The translations under genes and the position numbers were made by a program. Shown in pieces: positions 2,131 through 9,162 of a stretch of DNA of 64,000 nt; the first letter of the stretch is position 1, and the number at the start of each line of letters is the position of its first letter. The notes below the pieces were generated by a model. It made no database searches, was not told where the DNA came from, and worked only from the letters and a program-made list of their open reading frames with translations. The stretch is from Blastococcus sp. TBT05-19 (GTDB lineage: Bacteria > Actinomycetota > Actinomycetes > Mycobacteriales > Geodermatophilaceae): positions 186,001-250,000 of the forward strand of contig NZ_QOHI01000005.1 in assembly GCF_003319095.1 (NCBI RefSeq). The letters run 5' to 3'.

Positions 2131-2204
2131 TGCCCCCGGTGCGACTCGAACGCACACTGCGCGGGTTTTGAATCCGCTCCCTCTGCCGATTGGGGTACGG
2201 GGGC
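2131..2204 (-). tRNA. tRNA-Leu (CAA)
   Basis: On the minus strand the 74-nt sequence folds as a cloverleaf. The acceptor stem is GCCCCCG/CGGGGGC with discriminator A, the T arm is GTGCG-TTCGAGT-CGCAC, and the anticodon loop TTCAAAA places CAA at 34-36, which reads the leucine codon UUG. The variable region is only 5 nt, so the long arm expected in leucine tRNAs is absent. The anticodon stem has an A-C mismatch at 31-39. No CCA is encoded. Confidence 0.88.
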
Positions 2205-2279
2205 GTGCCGGGTGCGACCGGCGCCGGGGCAGCCTATCGGGGCGGTGCCCGGGACCCGACGCCGATAGGCTCCTGCCCC

Positions 2280-2876
2280 GTGAGCAGCGACCCGATCCGC
2301 GTTCTGATCGCCGAGGACGAGGCGCTGATCCGTCTCGACCTCAAGGAGATGCTGGAGGAGGAGGGCTACAACGTCGTCGCAGAGGTCGGCGACGGTCAGC
2401 AGGCCGTCGACCGTGCGCAGGAGCTGCAGCCGGACCTGGTCATCCTCGACATCCAGATGCCGGTGCTGGACGGGCTGTCCGCCGCCGAGCAGATCGCCTC
2501 GGCCCGCATCGCGCCGGTCATCGTGCTCACCGCCTTCAGCCAGCGCGAGCTCGTGGAGCGGGCACGTGACGCCGGGGCCATGGCCTACCTGGTCAAGCCG
2601 TTCTCGAAGAACGACCTGGTCCCCGCCATCGAGGTGGCCCGCGGCCGCTTCGCGGAGATGACGGCGCTGGACGGCGAGGTCCGCACGCTCGAGGAGCGCC
2701 TGGAGACCCGCAAGGTCGTGGAGCAGGCGAAGGGCCGGGTGATGGCCGACCAGGGGATGTCCGAGGCCGAGGCGTTCCGCTGGATCCAGCGCACGGCGAT
2801 GAACCAGCGCACCAGCATGAAGGCGCTCGCGGAGGCGATCCTGGCCGGTACAGCGGTCGGCGACGCGTCGGTCTGA
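2280..2876 (+). CDS. pdtaR: Response regulator with ANTAR RNA-binding domain (PdtaR type)
   Basis: Two-component response regulator (198 aa). The N-terminal receiver domain has the acidic pair near E12/D13, phospho-acceptor D57 in VILDIQMPV, and the conserved Lys in LVKPFSKN. The C-terminal ANTAR domain (about 130-190, with the AKGRVMADQGMSEAEAF helix) binds tandem hairpins in nascent RNA to prevent transcription termination. Length and architecture match mycobacterial PdtaR (Rv1626). The start is the GTG at 2280 (MSSDPIRV); the frame is open further upstream but runs into the tRNA. The partner kinase is not in this window. Confidence 0.93.
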   Translation: MSSDPIRVLIAEDEALIRLDLKEMLEEEGYNVVAEVGDGQQAVDRAQELQPDLVILDIQMPVLDGLSAAEQIASARIAPVIVLTAFSQRELVERARDAGAMAYLVKPFSKNDLVPAIEVARGRFAEMTALDGEVRTLEERLETRKVVEQAKGRVMADQGMSEAEAFRWIQRTAMNQRTSMKALAEAILAGTAVGDASV

Positions 2877-3116: not shown

Positions 3117-4448
3117 ATGCGCACTGGCACAACTGCCCGAGGCATCGCCGTGACCGGTGCCGCCCTCCTCGCCCTGACCGCCTGTGGCGGCGGCGACGGC
3201 GGCGGCAGCGACAACGCCGACAGCGGCGACAGCGGCGAGAAGCAGGTCAACGTCTACGGCACCGACGGCAACATGGGTAACGCCCTCGGTGAGGACTTCT
3301 CCGAGGAGGGCGCGCTCGCGGGGATGCGGGGCACCACGCCGCTCACCGACCTGTCGCAGGACTTCAAGGACCGGCTGCTCGAGGTCGACCCCAACCTGCA
3401 GGACTACAACTACGCCGGTGAGACCTACGACGCGGTCGTCCTGACGGCGCTGGCAGCCCAGGCCGCCGGTAGCAACCAGGCCACGGCGTTCGCGCCCTAC
3501 GTCAACGGCCTCACCTTCGGTGGCGAGGCCTGCACCGACTTCGCCGCCTGCGCCGAGATCCTGGCCAGCGGCGGCAACGTCGACTACGACGGTGCCTCCG
3601 GTCCGCTGAGCTTCGCCGACGCCGGTGAGCCGGCCGAGGCCAGCTTCGGCATCCTGCAGTTCGGTGAGGACAACACCCTCGACGACGACGCCACGGAGTT
3701 CGTGATCTCCGGCGACGAGGCCAACGCCGCCACCGACGAGGGCCCGGCTCCGGTCCCGACCGCGACCACGGGTGGCCCGCTGATCATCGGGACGCTGCTC
3801 CCGCTGACCGGCAACCTCGCGTTCCTCGGCCCGCCCGAGGTCGCCGGTGCCAAGCTCGCCGTCCAGGACATCAACGCCGCCGGCGGCGTGCTGGGTGCTC
3901 CGGTGCAGCTCGTCGAGGGTGACTCCGGTGACGCCTCGACCGACACGGCCACCCAGACCGTCGACCGCCTGCTGCAGGCCGGCGTCAACGCGATCGTGGG
4001 CGCCGCGTCCTCCGGCGTGAGCCTCACCGTCATCGACGCCATCACGCAGGCCGGCGTCATGCAGATCTCGCCGGCCAACACGTCGGACCAGTTCACGACC
4101 TACAACGACAACGGCCTGTACTTCCGTACGGCTCCGCCGGACACGCTGCAGGCTCGCGCCCTGGCCGACCTGATCATCGAGGACGGCAACAACACGGTCG
4201 GCATCCTCGCCCTCAACGACCCGTACGGCACGGGTCTGGCGGAGAACACGCTGAACAACCTGGTCGAGGCCGGCCTCTCCGAGGACGACATCGTCAGCAT
4301 CACCTACGACCCGCAGGCGGCGAACTTCGACTCCGAGGTCCAGGAGATGGTCGAGTTCAACCCCGACGCGATCGTGGTCATCGGCTTCGAGGAGTCCTCG
4401 CGGATCCTCGAGGGTCTCAACTCCAACGGCGTCGGCCCGCAGCGTTGA
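3117..4448 (+). CDS. Branched-chain amino acid ABC transporter substrate-binding lipoprotein, circularly permuted
   Basis: Type I periplasmic binding lipoprotein (443 aa). It begins with a lipoprotein signal (LLALTAC, lipid Cys23) and a Gly/Ser/Asp spacer. The domain order is unusual. Residues about 41-200 (from NVYGTDGNMGN through YDGASGPLSFADAGEP to ILQFGEDN) match what is normally the C-terminal part of this family. After a linker (about 201-220, APVPTATTGG), residues 221-443 match the normal N-terminal part (IGTLLPLTGNLAFLGPPE, ASSGVSLTV, SPANTSDQF, FRTAPPD, NDPYGTGLAEN). The protein then stops at GVGPQR, exactly where normal homologues continue into VYGTDGN. The single frame is uninterrupted. 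ATG 3117 has GGGAG just upstream. Its partners are probably livHMGF on the opposite strand. Family order is recalled knowledge, not a search. Confidence 0.9.
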   Translation: MRTGTTARGIAVTGAALLALTACGGGDGGGSDNADSGDSGEKQVNVYGTDGNMGNALGEDFSEEGALAGMRGTTPLTDLSQDFKDRLLEVDPNLQDYNYAGETYDAVVLTALAAQAAGSNQATAFAPYVNGLTFGGEACTDFAACAEILASGGNVDYDGASGPLSFADAGEPAEASFGILQFGEDNTLDDDATEFVISGDEANAATDEGPAPVPTATTGGPLIIGTLLPLTGNLAFLGPPEVAGAKLAVQDINAAGGVLGAPVQLVEGDSGDASTDTATQTVDRLLQAGVNAIVGAASSGVSLTVIDAITQAGVMQISPANTSDQFTTYNDNGLYFRTAPPDTLQARALADLIIEDGNNTVGILALNDPYGTGLAENTLNNLVEAGLSEDDIVSITYDPQAANFDSEVQEMVEFNPDAIVVIGFEESSRILEGLNSNGVGPQR

Positions 4449-4454
4449 TCCCCG

Positions 4455-4476
4455 CTACCGGGTCGTGACCCGGTAG
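4455..4476 (+). terminator. Hairpin directly after the binding-protein gene
   Basis: CTACCGGG (4455-4462) pairs perfectly with CCCGGTAG (4469-4476) across a 6-nt loop, starting 6 nt after the stop codon. There is no clear U tract, as is usual in high-GC actinobacteria. Confidence 0.6.
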
Positions 4477-4484
4477 GAGCCACA

Positions 4485-4523
4485 CACTGTGGCCCGGCAC
4501 CCACTGGGTGCCGGGCCACAGTG
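4485..4523. terminator. Strong bidirectional terminator hairpin
   Basis: A perfect 18-bp inverted repeat (CACTGTGGCCCGGCACCC at 4485-4502 with its complement at 4506-4523) and a 3-nt loop. It sits between the convergent binding-protein gene and livF, so it could stop transcription from either side. Confidence 0.75.
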
Positions 4524-4582
4524 CTGTCCGGGGCACGACGCCGTTTCCGTGCCGACCGACCCCGGCTGCAGAAGCGGTGTGG

Positions 4583-4885
4583 GCGGAGCGATGTCCCTCC
4601 GAGCGCCGTTCCTGGCGCCGGAACGACGCATGCAGGGACTTCGCCGGCCGGGGTTGCCTGGGCCAGCCACCGGAACCGGTCGCCACCCGACGCCGGCTGC
4701 TCGGGGCGTCGCGGGCGGAGCGATGTCCCTCCGAGCGCCATTCCGGTCGCCGGAATGACGCATGCAGGGACCACGCCGGCCGGGGTCGCCTGGGCCAGCG
4801 CGTCAGGGCCGAGCGGTGTCCCTCTGAGCGCCGTTCCGGGCGCCGGGACGACGCGTGCAGGGACGACGCCGGCAGGGGTGGCCGC
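4583..4885. repeat. Three copies of a conserved 47-base hairpin repeat
   Basis: Three related units occupy about 4583-4666, 4715-4799 and 4808-4885 in the 436-base non-coding gap before livF. Each contains a 47-base hairpin (4593-4639, 4725-4771, 4818-4864). The outer arms GTCCCT/AGGGAC are kept in all copies. The inner stem shows paired changes: CGTTCC/GGAACG, CATTCC/GGAATG, and CGTTCC/GGGACG with a G-U pair. A GCCGGCCGGGG-CCTGGGCCAG tail follows copies 1 and 2 and decays in copy 3. It could be a REP-like element or a structured RNA in the livF 3' region. Confidence 0.7.
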
Positions 4886-4959
4886 CGGCTCGGCGCCCGC
4901 GAACGCGACAGCGCCGGCCCCCTGGCGGGGACCGGCGCTGCGGCGGGACGAGCGGTGGG

Positions 4960-5811
4960 CTAGTGGGCCTTGGCCAGCGTGCCCAGGTAGAGCTCGATGA
5001 CCTTGGGGTCGTTCATCAGCGACGCGCCTGTGTCGGTGTAGGCGTTGCGGCCCTGGTCGAGCACGTAGCCGCGGTCGCAGATCTGCAGGCACCGGCGGGC
5101 GTTCTGCTCGACCATGATGATCGAGACACCCGTGGCGTTGATCCGCCGGCAGCGGATGAAGACCTCGTCCTGGTAGGCGGGGGAGAGGCCGGCCGACGGC
5201 TCGTCGAGCAGCAGCACCGACGGGTCCATCATCAGCGCGCGGCCCATGGCCACCATCTGGCGCTCGCCACCGGAGAGCGCCCCGGCCTTGCCCTTGCGCC
5301 GCTCGCCGAGCAGCGGGAACAGGTCGATGACGTAGTCGAACCGCTCCTTGAAGGTCTTCGGCCGCAGGTAGACGCCCATCTGCATGTTCTCCTCGATGGT
5401 GAGCGAGGGGAACACGTTGTTGTTCTGCGGGACGTAGCCGACACCCAGCGAGACCAGGCGGTGCGCCGGCGCGGAGGTGATGCTCTCCCCGCGCAGGGTC
5501 ACCGAGCCCGATCGCACCGGGATGAGGCCGAACAGCGTCTTGAGCAGCGTCGACTTGCCGGCACCGTTGGGGCCGATGATGCCGACGAGCTCGCCCTCCT
5601 GCAGGTAGAAGTCGCAGCCGCGGAGGATGTTCACGCCCGGCACGTAGCCGGCCACCAGGTCGTCGGCGCGCACCAGCGCGCCCTCGGCCAGCCGCACGTG
5701 CTCCTCGCGGGTCGCTGCCTTCTCGGCGGGGGAGAGCTCCGTGCTCTCCACCGTCTCGGCGCGGGTCAGGCCCTCGCCGGACTCGTCGACCTCGAACACC
5801 GGCTCGCTCAT
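4960..5811 (-). CDS. livF: Branched-chain amino acid ABC transporter ATP-binding protein LivF
   Basis: ATPase subunit (283 aa) energising high-affinity branched-chain amino acid uptake. Walker A is GPNGAGKST (80-88), the signature is LSGGERQ, Walker B is VLLLDEPSAGLSP, and the switch His is replaced by Gln-like sequence IIMVEQN, as is usual for LivF. An approximately 45-residue acidic N-terminal extension precedes the ABC fold; typical LivF is about 235 aa. The ATG at 5811 overlaps the livG stop by 4 bases (ATGA), implying coupled translation. It is the last gene of the minus-strand livHMGF operon. Confidence 0.94.
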   Translation of the reverse strand: MSEPVFEVDESGEGLTRAETVESTELSPAEKAATREEHVRLAEGALVRADDLVAGYVPGVNILRGCDFYLQEGELVGIIGPNGAGKSTLLKTLFGLIPVRSGSVTLRGESITSAPAHRLVSLGVGYVPQNNNVFPSLTIEENMQMGVYLRPKTFKERFDYVIDLFPLLGERRKGKAGALSGGERQMVAMGRALMMDPSVLLLDEPSAGLSPAYQDEVFIRCRRINATGVSIIMVEQNARRCLQICDRGYVLDQGRNAYTDTGASLMNDPKVIELYLGTLAKAH

Positions 5812-6812
5812 CGGCCCGTCCCCTCACTGCTGTCGGAGGAGCCCGGCTCGTCCCGGCTCTCCTCACGGGCGATCTGCGCCTCGACCTCGGCCAGCACCCG
5901 GTCCTCGTCCTCGACGGTGAGCGGGGCGTCGTGGTGGGCGCCGAGGTAGGCGTCGACCACGGCCCTGTTCTGGCTGATCGACTCCGGCGGGCCCTCGGCG
6001 ATGACCTTGCCGGCCGCCATGACGACGACCCAGTCGCTGATGTCGCGGACCACGTCCATGTCGTGCTCGACGAAGATGACCGTCATGCCCTCCTCGCGGA
6101 GGTCCTTGACGTGCCCGAGCAGGCTCTGCGTGAGCGCGGGGTTCACGCCGGCCATCGGCTCGTCGAGCATGACCACCTGCGGGTCGCTCATGAGCGCGCG
6201 GGCCATCTCCAGCAGCTTGCGCTGGCCACCGGACAGCGTGCCGGCGAAGTCGTCCTTCTTCGCATCCAGCTTGAACCGCCGGAGCAGCTCCATGGCCTTC
6301 TCGGTGTTGGCCTTCTCCTGAGCGCGCCAGGTGCCCGGCACCAGCGCGCGGAGGAAGCTCTCGCCGCGCTGCCCCTGGGCGCCGAGCAGCATGTTCTGCA
6401 GCACGGTGAGCCGGGACAGCGCCTTGGTGAGCTGGAAGGTCCGGACGACGCCGAGCCGCGCGACCTGGTGGGGGGCCAGCTTGCCCAGCGACCTGCCGTT
6501 GAACGACCAGGTGCCGGTGTCGGGCTGGTCGAACCCGGTCAGCAGGTTGAACAGCGTCGTCTTGCCGGCGCCGTTGGGCCCGATGAGCCCGGTGATGCCG
6601 CCGCGCTGGATCTCCAGGTGGTCCACCGAGACGGCCGTCAGACCGCCGAACGTGCGCGTGATGCCGTCGACGACCACGGCGGCGTCGGGCTTGGCGACGC
6701 CGACCTCCCACGGGAGGTCGCGCAGCGCCGCCTGCGCCAGGCGCTGGGGGGCGCCGCCGGTCGTGCCTGCGCCGGCGGCCGTGGCACCGTGCGGGATCGG
6801 GTCAGCGGGCAT
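5808..6812 (-). CDS. livG: Branched-chain amino acid ABC transporter ATP-binding protein LivG
   Basis: Second ATPase subunit (334 aa, longer than the usual 255). Walker A is GPNGAGKTT, the signature LSGGQRK, Walker B VVMLDEPMAGVNP, and the H-loop is in VIFVEHDMDVV. A Pro/Gly/Ala-rich N-terminal extension (about 45 residues, starting MPADPIPHGA) and an acidic C-terminal tail (EDEDRVLAEVEAQ onward) flank the core. The ATG at 6812 lies inside the end of livM (11-base overlap), and its stop overlaps the livF start. Confidence 0.93.
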   Translation of the reverse strand: MPADPIPHGATAAGAGTTGGAPQRLAQAALRDLPWEVGVAKPDAAVVVDGITRTFGGLTAVSVDHLEIQRGGITGLIGPNGAGKTTLFNLLTGFDQPDTGTWSFNGRSLGKLAPHQVARLGVVRTFQLTKALSRLTVLQNMLLGAQGQRGESFLRALVPGTWRAQEKANTEKAMELLRRFKLDAKKDDFAGTLSGGQRKLLEMARALMSDPQVVMLDEPMAGVNPALTQSLLGHVKDLREEGMTVIFVEHDMDVVRDISDWVVVMAAGKVIAEGPPESISQNRAVVDAYLGAHHDAPLTVEDEDRVLAEVEAQIAREESRDEPGSSDSSEGTGR

Positions 6813-7800
6813 CGAGCATCACCTCTCGTCGATCACCGAAGATGCCCTGGGGGCGGAAGATCAGCAGCAGCATCAGGCCCAGACCGACGAGGACGAAGCG
6901 GATCTGCGCGACGTCGGTGGAGGACAGCAGGTCCTCGGGGATGATCCCGTTGCTGATCAGCAGGCGCAGGCCCGTGTCGGCGAACTGCAGGATGAACAGC
7001 AGGATCATGGCGCCGACGACCGGCCCCAGCACCCGCGCGGCCCCGCCGAGGATGAGGGCGGCGTAGGCCAGGAACGTGTTCGCGTTCTGGTACTGGTCCG
7101 GGACGGCCGAGCCGGTGCCCACCGCGTAGACCATGCCGCCGAGGGCGCCGAAGACACCGCCGAGCACCAGCGCCTGCATCTTGTAGACGTAGACGTTCTT
7201 GCCCAGGGCGCGGACGGCGTCCTCGTCCTCGCGGATCGACTTCACCACGCGGCCCCAGGGGCTGCGCATGAGGAGGAAGACCAGCAGGCTGCCCAGGATC
7301 ACCAGGATCCAGCCGACCAGGGCCACCCACAGCTCGCCGCCGGACCAGCTGGTCCCGAGGATCGAGTAGCGCTGCGAGGTGTTCCACGGCGCCAGGGCGA
7401 TGAAGTCGCCGTTGAAGGCCGACAGACCGCGCGTGCCGTTGGTGACCGGCGTCGCCGACACCGACCGGAACAGCAGCCGCAGTCCTTCGGCGGTCGCGAT
7501 GGTCGCGATGGCCAGGTAGTCCGCGCGCAGCCGCAGGGTCGGCAGACCCAGGAGGAGCGCGAGGACGACGGCGGCCAGCAGGCCCACCAGGACGCCGACC
7601 CAGAAGGGCAGGCCCCACTGGCTGACGGAGATGGCGATGCCGAACCCGCCGAGCAGCGCGAACGCGATCTGGCCGAAGTTGAGCAGGCCGGCGTAGCCGA
7701 ACTGCACGTTGATGCCGATGGCCAGCAGCGCGAAGAAGATCGCCTGGAAGCCGAGCGCGGACTTGCCCGCGACGGCCAGGGCGTTGAGGAGGTCGGCCAT
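6802..7800 (-). CDS. livM: Branched-chain amino acid ABC transporter permease LivM
   Basis: Integral membrane permease (332 aa) with about 8-9 hydrophobic helices. The family signature is present: NVQFGYAGLLNFGQIAFALLG near the N-terminus and the EAA-like loop WGRVVKSIREDEDAVRALGKNVYVYK, which contacts the ATPases. It ends in a RPQGIFGDRREV tail typical of LivM. The ATG at 7800 follows the livH stop by 3 bases and overlaps livG downstream. It forms the translocation pore with LivH. Confidence 0.93.
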   Translation of the reverse strand: MADLLNALAVAGKSALGFQAIFFALLAIGINVQFGYAGLLNFGQIAFALLGGFGIAISVSQWGLPFWVGVLVGLLAAVVLALLLGLPTLRLRADYLAIATIATAEGLRLLFRSVSATPVTNGTRGLSAFNGDFIALAPWNTSQRYSILGTSWSGGELWVALVGWILVILGSLLVFLLMRSPWGRVVKSIREDEDAVRALGKNVYVYKMQALVLGGVFGALGGMVYAVGTGSAVPDQYQNANTFLAYAALILGGAARVLGPVVGAMILLFILQFADTGLRLLISNGIIPEDLLSSTDVAQIRFVLVGLGLMLLLIFRPQGIFGDRREVMLDAR

Positions 7801-7803
7801 GGG

Positions 7804-9162
7804 TCAGCCGATCCGTGCGCGGCTGCCCAGGATGCCCTGGGGTCGGATGACGAGGATGACGATCAAGAGCAGCAGCCCTCCGACGTACTTCACGTCATTC
7901 GGGATGACGAGGGTCGACATCTGCACGAACACACCCACGATCAGGCTGCCCACGAGGGCGCCGTACGCGGTGCCGAGGCCACCCAGGGTGACACCGGCGA
8001 ACATCAGGAGCAGCAGGCGGAAGCCCATGTCCCACTGCACCTGGTCGGACAGGCCGAGCAGCACGCCGCCGAGCGCGGCCAGCGCGCCACCCATCATCCA
8101 GACGACCAGGATGACGCGGTTGACGTCGATGCCCGACGACGCGGCCAGGTCGCGGTTGTCGGCGACGGCCCGCATGGCCTTGCCGATCTTCGTCCGCTGC
8201 AGCATCACGGCCACGAGGACGAGGACGACGACGGAGATGATCACCGACGCGAGGTCGGCGTTGGTCATCGTGAAGAAGCCGTAGTTGACCGCGCGCCCGC
8301 CCTGGAAGCCCTGGTAGGGGCTGGAGCGGCCGCCGTACACGATCTGGATCAGGTAGCGCAGCAGCAGCGACAGACCGATCGAGACGACCAGCGCGGCGAT
8401 CAGGCCGGTACCGCGCCGGCGCAGCGGCCGCCAGAGGCCCAGCTCGTTCAGCGCGCCGACCGCGGCTCCCACGATCATCGCCAGGATCGTGGCGACGATC
8501 AGGTTCACGCCGCCCGAGACGTTGATGTACCAGGCGGCGACCGCGCCGATCGTGACCAGCTCGCCGTGCGCGAAGTTGGTCAGGCCCGTCGTCCCGAAGA
8601 TCAGGGAGAGGCCGACGGCGGCCATGGCGATCAGCAGACCGAAGCGGATGCCGTCGACCAGCAGCTGGACGGCCTTGACGGTGCCGCCACCGGAGCCGCG
8701 GCTGCCGTCCTCGAGGCCGATGATGACCGCCTGGCGGCGCCCCTCGTCGACGGTGACGGTGCGACTGGCCTCGCCGGCGAGCTCGACGCCGTCGGGGAGG
8801 TCGTCGGCGTCGATGGCGACCGTGTACTGACCGGGACCGGGCAGGTCCACCGACCAGCGGCCGTCCTCGTCGGTCTCGACCTCGTCGACGTCCTCACCGG
8901 CAGCCGTGGTGACCGTGACCGCGATGCCCTCGATGGGGCCGCTCCGGCTGGTCTGCAGCGTGCCGGCGACCTGCTCGCCCTCGGCCGAGGCGATGCCCGG
9001 GCTGAAGGCGGCCAGGCCGAGCCCGAACGTCAGGACCAGCAGCAACCGGACGACGACACGCGACGCCTCGATCGGCCGGCCCCGGCCTCGCAGTCGCGGC
9101 AGGGAACGCAGGGTTCCCGCTCGTCGACCATGCCGGCGGGCACGGTTTCCCGCGTGCGTCAC
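7804..9162 (-). CDS. livH: Branched-chain amino acid ABC transporter permease LivH with N-terminal extracytoplasmic domain
   Basis: A 452-aa permease. The C-terminal part (from about residue 160) is LivH: GLSLIFGTTGLTNFAHGELVT, an IGKAMRAVADNRDLAASSGI coupling loop and a final RPQGILGSRARIG. The first 160 residues are extra. They hold a signal-like hydrophobic segment (about 36-58) ending in ASA, then a beta-sandwich of the carboxypeptidase-regulatory or Cna-B type (about 62-150, with TDEDGRWSVDLPGPGQYTV). LivH proteins are usually about 300 aa. The GTG at 9162 is preceded by GGGAGG at good spacing. It is the first gene of livHMGF. Confidence 0.92.
   Translation of the reverse strand: MTHAGNRARRHGRRAGTLRSLPRLRGRGRPIEASRVVVRLLLVLTFGLGLAAFSPGIASAEGEQVAGTLQTSRSGPIEGIAVTVTTAAGEDVDEVETDEDGRWSVDLPGPGQYTVAIDADDLPDGVELAGEASRTVTVDEGRRQAVIIGLEDGSRGSGGGTVKAVQLLVDGIRFGLLIAMAAVGLSLIFGTTGLTNFAHGELVTIGAVAAWYINVSGGVNLIVATILAMIVGAAVGALNELGLWRPLRRRGTGLIAALVVSIGLSLLLRYLIQIVYGGRSSPYQGFQGGRAVNYGFFTMTNADLASVIISVVVLVLVAVMLQRTKIGKAMRAVADNRDLAASSGIDVNRVILVVWMMGGALAALGGVLLGLSDQVQWDMGFRLLLLMFAGVTLGGLGTAYGALVGSLIVGVFVQMSTLVIPNDVKYVGGLLLLIVILVIRPQGILGSRARIG

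Follow-up and report, generated by a model that had tools for sequence, protein, structure and literature searches.

The C-terminal half of the Liv-type substrate-binding protein (SBP) described here precedes its N-terminal half in one gene. We showed this order, its conservation and synteny, its occurrence in separate clusters of relatives, two cut sites and a conserved linker length; the fold is predicted by a model. The very likely explanation is that a working amino-acid SBP was circularly permuted in place, and repeatedly, so that its lipid anchor now sits on the C lobe where it once sat on the N lobe; transport, ligand binding and the effect of a C-lobe tether are inferred. Positions refer to the window, the whole stretch of 64,000 nucleotides of Blastococcus sp. 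TBT05-19 that was analysed.

The gene (3117-4448, plus strand) is one open frame and its product, a predicted lipoprotein of 443 aa, is named P0001 (Table 1). P0001 starts with MRTGTTARGIAVTGAALLALTAC and carries the lipobox LTAC with Cys23; the signal peptide leads into a Liv-type binding protein (Peripla_BP_6) with its C-terminal half first, then a linker and its N-terminal half. The C half opens at cut site A, just ahead of the strand VNVYG and the DGN loop. In mid-chain, normal proteins have ..GIGP-xx-VYGVDGN..; P0001 ends with ..NGVGPQR and the stop codon, and starts after the tether with ..KQVNVYGTDGN. Normal proteins end shortly past ..DNxxxxxYxVG; P0001 runs on into the linker and then into IIGTLLPLTG, the usual start of the mature domain in normal-order proteins.

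Table 1. Features of the SBP locus and its surroundings in the window.
Feature	Position	Strand	Basis or remark
ANTAR-domain response regulator, the syntenic neighbour on the upstream side	2190..2876	+	exact start codon uncertain
Circularly permuted Liv-type substrate-binding lipoprotein gene	3117..4448	+	443 aa; ORF, Pfam match, relatives
Lipoprotein signal peptide, lipobox LTA-Cys23	3117..3185	+	sequence; lipobox shared by almost every permuted relative
Short disordered tether, residues 24-41, Cys23 to C lobe	3186..3239	+	pLDDT <50 for residues 1-40
C-terminal half of normal Liv SBP (residues 42-199), now first	3240..3713	+	alignment to relatives, model
Asp50 of invariant DGN loop	3264..3266	+	invariant in 44 permuted relatives; profile alignment
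Linker, residues 200-221, old C terminus to old N terminus	3714..3779	+	termini of normal-order relatives; length conserved
Residues 222-443 (N-terminal half of normal Liv SBP), with the stop codon	3780..4448	+	ends ..NGVGPQR; Pfam, relatives
Hairpin straight after the stop codon, no T-tract	4455..4476	.	folding
Second, longer hairpin, convergent intergenic region	4482..4527	.	folding
LivF-type ATPase, convergent with the SBP gene	4960..5811	-	domain and synteny
LivG-type ATPase (ABC_tran and BCA_ABC_TP_C)	5808..6812	-	domains
LivM-type permease (BPD_transp_2)	6802..7800	-	domain
LivH-type permease with N-terminal CarboxypepD_reg (prealbumin-like) domain	7804..9162	-	domains

The Pfam search matched Peripla_BP_6 to residues 224-438 only, corresponding to profile positions 4-214 of 343, and found no match to the remainder of the profile after residue 438. 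Using phmmer against the PDB, LivJ/LivK-type chains aligned to P0001 from residue ~216 onward, the first part of P0001 matched at most weakly to the C-terminal end of these chains, and no chain of a solved structure covered the permuted order at full length. In normal-order relatives (Microbispora, Actinoplanes and Planotetraspora; families Streptosporangiaceae and Micromonosporaceae), the N half stops within a few residues of where the C half begins, and identity to P0001 was ~59% for the N half (P0001 219-443) and ~49% for the C half (P0001 42-187). Since the halves abut in these relatives exactly at the ends of P0001, the permutation is clean, without loss or overlap. P0001 thus meets the definition of a natural circular permutation: the old termini are joined, the new termini lie within the old chain and nothing is duplicated. 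Its Liv-type homology spans the whole domain with the halves swapped, and the criterion that the N half comes before the C half is not met.

A sequence-only reading of this stretch had claimed a C half preceding the N half in one open, intact-looking gene, a normal lipobox, and usual family members in which GVGPQ leads directly into VYGTDGN. All three held: the first on the ORF, Pfam and normal-order relatives, the second with LTA-Cys23, and the third because the halves abut there in normal-order relatives. Its claim of two terminators behind the gene was partly held. Two very stable hairpins are present (4455-4476 and 4482-4527, z = -8.1) and the terminator scan makes no call on them because they have no T-tract. 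Further on, positions 4574-4892 of the window hold three imperfect 94-nt direct repeats (100, 89 and 77%) between the convergent SBP and livF genes, with no copy elsewhere in the genome.

The same reading had left a misassembly of tandem copies possible, and this failed. According to this rival, two tandem normal genes were collapsed into one during assembly, and tandem SBP copies do exist in relatives. Against it, the same open frame with its own signal peptide, linker and stop recurs in dozens of independent assemblies, some of them single-contig, and constraint acts on both halves (see below). When relatives were searched for the same order, as the reading had proposed, the permuted order was found throughout the Geodermatophilaceae (Blastococcus, Geodermatophilus, Modestobacter, Klenkia and others), where it is the rule at 60-96% identity, single-contig assemblies included, and also in other families; ~70 permuted copies were found in all, in isolates and single-contig genomes. 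Relatives with two-match and one-match patterns were all examined at the ORF level. Misassembly is all but excluded, because the same colinear order occupies a conserved locus in dozens of independently assembled Geodermatophilaceae genomes. The swapped order is genuine and old. The reading would also have been refuted if the permuted order were the normal form; it is not, as normal-order orthologues fill the syntenic site in many actinobacterial families.

The P0001 SBP had no match, whichever the order of halves, in eight genomes of the same genus (G001, G009-G012, G014, G020 and G023), so part of the genus has lost the gene or the whole locus. One record named 'Bacillus sp. AZ43' (L034, SPQJ01000006.1), which is flagged UNVERIFIED_ORG, carries a Blastococcus-like locus with 87-95% protein identity and is evidently a mislabelled Geodermatophilaceae genome.

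The P0001 gene is linked to livFGMH genes. The locus order RR-SBP-livF-livG-livM-livH-(polA) is common to permuted and normal forms across Actinomycetota: the SBP sits between the ANTAR response regulator (RR) and the convergent livF-livG-livM-livH block, and polA is often next. Using family labels of the genome set searched (f-numbers, f1 being Geodermatophilaceae), normal-order copies occupy the locus in f4, f8, f10, f15, f23, f31, f41, f49, Streptosporangiaceae and Micromonosporaceae, and permuted copies occupy it in f1, f13, f39, f41 and f49. The SBP also adjoins livFGMH in f81, f122 and f68, with a different arrangement in f68. Since the locus and partner genes are the same in both orders, the permuted gene is an orthologue rearranged in place. 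The exception is f16, whose permuted copies lie away from liv genes. These f16 relatives (L121-L123, L201-L205 and L211) share 45-50% identity, and some of the genomes (genus g71) also have a normal-order match.

Weaker matches to a CarboxypepD_reg/prealbumin-like domain like that at the N terminus of LivH were found on LivH of both normal-order and permuted relatives. A link between the permutation and this domain was rejected, as the domain accompanies normal and permuted SBPs; being present in both forms, the LivH extension is a trait of the importer lineage, unconnected with the permutation.

In broader searches, permuted SBPs were found in f1, f13, f16, f39, f41, f49, f68, f81 and f122, with two cut sites. 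Cut A (f1, f16, f39, f41 and f49) divides GIGP..|..LY-VDGN. Cut B (f68, f81 and f122) lies ~20 residues beyond cut A, at DGNIGNALGE-F|L-GMKG; the cut-B proteins end with ..DGNIGNALGENFDAGK and the stop codon and start with ..ELxGMKGT. The genomes with cut B and those of f39/f49 are mostly fragmented assemblies, several of them metagenome-like. A lipobox is present in almost all permuted proteins, and the tether has a median of ~21 aa in the permuted family. In most clusters the median gap separating the conserved end of the C half from the beginning of the N half is 31-34 residues; f39 and f122 have medians of 38-40. The linker combines what was the C-terminal tail with a new stretch, and frequently also retains the last part of the former tether (GDGxLxVG). 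One f81 locus (L268, genome G1071) carries a tandem pair of permuted SBP genes, both of the cut-B type; the tether that follows the lipobox Cys is very short there.

The sequence-only reading had proposed a structure prediction, and AlphaFold2 gave a confident fold. Run on P0001 with 44 permuted sequences, it reached pLDDT 81 and pTM 0.81, with values <50 for residues 1-40 only. Foldseek aligned this model with Liv-type PDB structures over ~222 columns (TMq 0.43), and a normal-order relative predicted likewise over ~385 columns (TMt ~0.8). A half-length match of the permuted model is what a permutation would give with an order-dependent aligner. In the model, cut A falls between helix 427-436 and strand 45-49, and the position of cut B between short helix 55-58 and strand 71-74. 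Both cuts are thus in helix-to-strand loops, and strand-to-helix loops hold the DGN, SPANT, GAASS and DPYG motifs. It is the strand-to-helix side that faces the ligand cleft in type I SBPs. With the motifs on this cleft-facing side and the cuts in helix-to-strand loops, both cuts are therefore predicted to break the chain on the side of the C lobe that points away from the cleft.

The ligand-side motifs GAASS (S299), SPANT, DPYG and DGN are invariant or almost so in permuted relatives. Asp50 aligns, via the normal-order profile, to Asp226 of Atu2422 (3ip5), which we take to be a ligand-binding position. Nei-Gojobori dN/dS against seven relatives was ~0.23-0.43 over the gene, mostly lower in the N half than in the C half. 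These data show that the gene is under purifying selection with both halves constrained. As part of the whole best explanation, P0001 is very likely a functional amino-acid SBP, with ligand binding and transport inferred in the absence of assay data or a solved structure. The earlier claim of a naturally permuted Liv-type protein, made by an intact, expressed gene, is supported to the same extent: the function only looks intact, and ligand binding and transport are inferred.

A referee may object that P0001 is degenerate or repurposed, for example a sensor or an orphan SBP that no longer serves the importer. In favour of this, the same genome encodes five further full-length, normal-order Peripla_BP_6 proteins, and the permuted copies of f16 are not beside liv genes. 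Against it, the gene is convergent to livFGMH with conserved synteny, the ligand-loop motifs are invariant and selection is purifying. We consider this explanation unlikely and retain that of a working SBP.

For the number of origins, IQ-TREE trees of the rejoined SBP required 5 or 6 changes of the permuted label, and the well-supported branches force 4-5. The permuted clusters are Geodermatophilaceae (f16 lies near this cluster, separated from it by f8/f15 normal proteins), f39 with f49, f41, f81 with f122 (cut B) and f68 (cut B). The f41 permuted cluster is nested in f41 normal-order proteins (100/100), the halves being 69-75% identical for typical members, and the f68 permuted cluster is sister to f81 normal proteins. 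The N half alone gave 6 changes and the C half alone 5, with unchanged groups. The concatenated tree of the neighbouring LivF/G/M/H, which are themselves unrearranged, gave 5 changes. Chimera formation or gene conversion between paralogues was rejected, as the trees of both halves agree.

In AU tests, a single clade of all permuted proteins was rejected by SBP (p=3.6e-5) and LivFGMH (p=2.5e-6), as was a single clade of all cut-A proteins (8e-7 and 3e-6, respectively). One origin was not rejected for Geodermatophilaceae with f16 (p=0.54), for all cut-B proteins (p=0.13) or for Geodermatophilaceae with f16 and cut B (p=0.08), and for f41 joined to f39/f49, SBP gave rejection (p=0.01) and LivFGMH did not (p=0.18). 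The groups were set by phenotype before testing, while the pairwise subsets were picked after the trees were seen. There were at least three origins by a conservative count (cut A twice and cut B once) and the trees favour ~5; the exact number is uncertain. The single oddity that had first been noted is thus amended to a permutation recurring in several lineages with two cut sites. On the SBP tree, one normal-order f41 protein (L255, genome G1152) falls within the permuted f41 cluster (91/87), and on the LivFGMH tree it groups with normal f41 proteins; its branch is long, and the placement is possibly an error or a reversion.

The scatter could alternatively reflect one ancient permutation, as a permuted paralogue or a horizontally spread gene, followed by differential loss, transfer or reversion. 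This is favoured by cluster subsets that cannot be separated with confidence, by the relocation of the f16 copies from liv genes, so that movement does happen, and by the similar linker lengths of the cut-A clusters. However, a paralogue or transfer predicts that permuted proteins cluster together, which was rejected for both SBP and its LivFGMH neighbours; each half separately agrees on the scatter, and there are two different cut sites. A single ancient permutation is therefore unlikely, and repeated origin remains our reading.

Under repeated origin, the normal-order gene of the orthologous locus was rearranged where it stood. A linker, with ~31 residues separating the conserved cores, now joins the former N and C termini, and the new ends open in a helix-to-strand loop of the C lobe. 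The chain is predicted to fold to the usual two-lobe Venus-flytrap, lipid-anchored via the C lobe and not the N lobe. Events of this kind would have taken place repeatedly and independently within Actinomycetota, each opening one of two adjacent loops in the C lobe. The putative mechanism is duplication in tandem, after which the outer halves were lost. Permutation by duplication has been described (PMC3320104) and is inferred here as the best-fitting mechanism. Tandem SBP copies exist today in f31, f49, f41 and f81, and the leader of the permuted f41 gene L244 (GGQMKRSTKT..) resembles that of the normal f41 gene L245 (GGQMKRSTKT..). No fused N-C-N or C-N-C intermediate was found among the fetched loci, where second domain hits were split hits; the duplication step is therefore an inference.

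Whether the permutation has a functional consequence is a further question. It may be neutral, with C-lobe loops that are merely permissive, frequent tandem duplication and fixation by drift. Synteny and partner genes are unchanged, including the N-terminal domain of LivH in both forms, and close relatives keep normal forms. Against neutrality, every cluster shifts the anchor to the same C-lobe region with a similar linker length, despite many openable loops; structural tolerance alone could also limit the choice of cut site. We can neither favour nor dismiss neutrality on this evidence. A bolder reading is that ~5 in-place permutations, always with C-lobe re-tethering via two neighbouring loops and similar linkers, represent convergent evolution under selection on membrane tethering. 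We offer it only tentatively, as we judge it less likely than not.

Most accounts of a natural circular permutation treat it as one ancient event, deduced from structures. Here, ancestral and permuted forms occupy one locus in related genomes, with up to ~75% identity per half and flanking genes that provide an independent tree. The family is also a warning that profile searches and automatic annotation detect only half of such permuted proteins. Biosensor designers, who permute SBPs artificially, may find natural solutions to copy in its cut sites and ~31-residue linker.

In the open-access literature searched, no paper on a permuted Liv-type SBP was found, and the only natural permuted SBP was TpMglB-2 (Tp0684) of Treponema pallidum (PMC4990184). 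Thus the claim of the sequence-only reading that no natural permuted Liv-type binding protein is known holds for the Liv type, while permuted SBPs in general have this precedent. Within that literature, a permuted Liv-type SBP, its repeated origins at an orthologous locus and its C-lobe cut appear to be new. TpMglB-2, classified as 'Type Ic / Cluster Bc', binds glucose and changes conformation on binding; its authors already proposed a tie between permutation and tethering, and one clade of TpMglB-2-like proteins was traced (PMC4990184). With P0001 it shares the natural permutation of an SBP of type I, a lipid anchor (predicted for P0001), ABC genes of its own alongside and an extra crossover or linker between the old termini. 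Unlike P0001, which is Liv/HAAT, it belongs to the MglB-type sugar-binding family, and it is cut in the N lobe, whose strands run in the order 5-4-6-1-2-3; the C lobe is unaffected and the N-lobe start is kept. The P0001 family has a C-lobe cut at two sites and is recurrent; P0001 is homologous to Peripla_BP_6, and neither MglB homology nor an N-lobe cut applies to it.

Compared with the Liv-type (HAAT) SBPs of PF13458, such as LivJ/LivK, Atu2422 and S. pneumoniae LivJ (4gnr), P0001 shares both halves, the ligand-loop motifs, the lipoprotein signal and the neighbouring livFGMH, and differs in the order of the halves, the anchor on the C lobe and the linker between the old termini. The closest comparison is with the normal-order orthologues of Microbispora, Actinoplanes, f4, f8, f10, f15, f23, f31, f41 and f49, which share its syntenic position and partner genes but are not permuted, and in f41 these reach up to ~75% identity per half to permuted forms.
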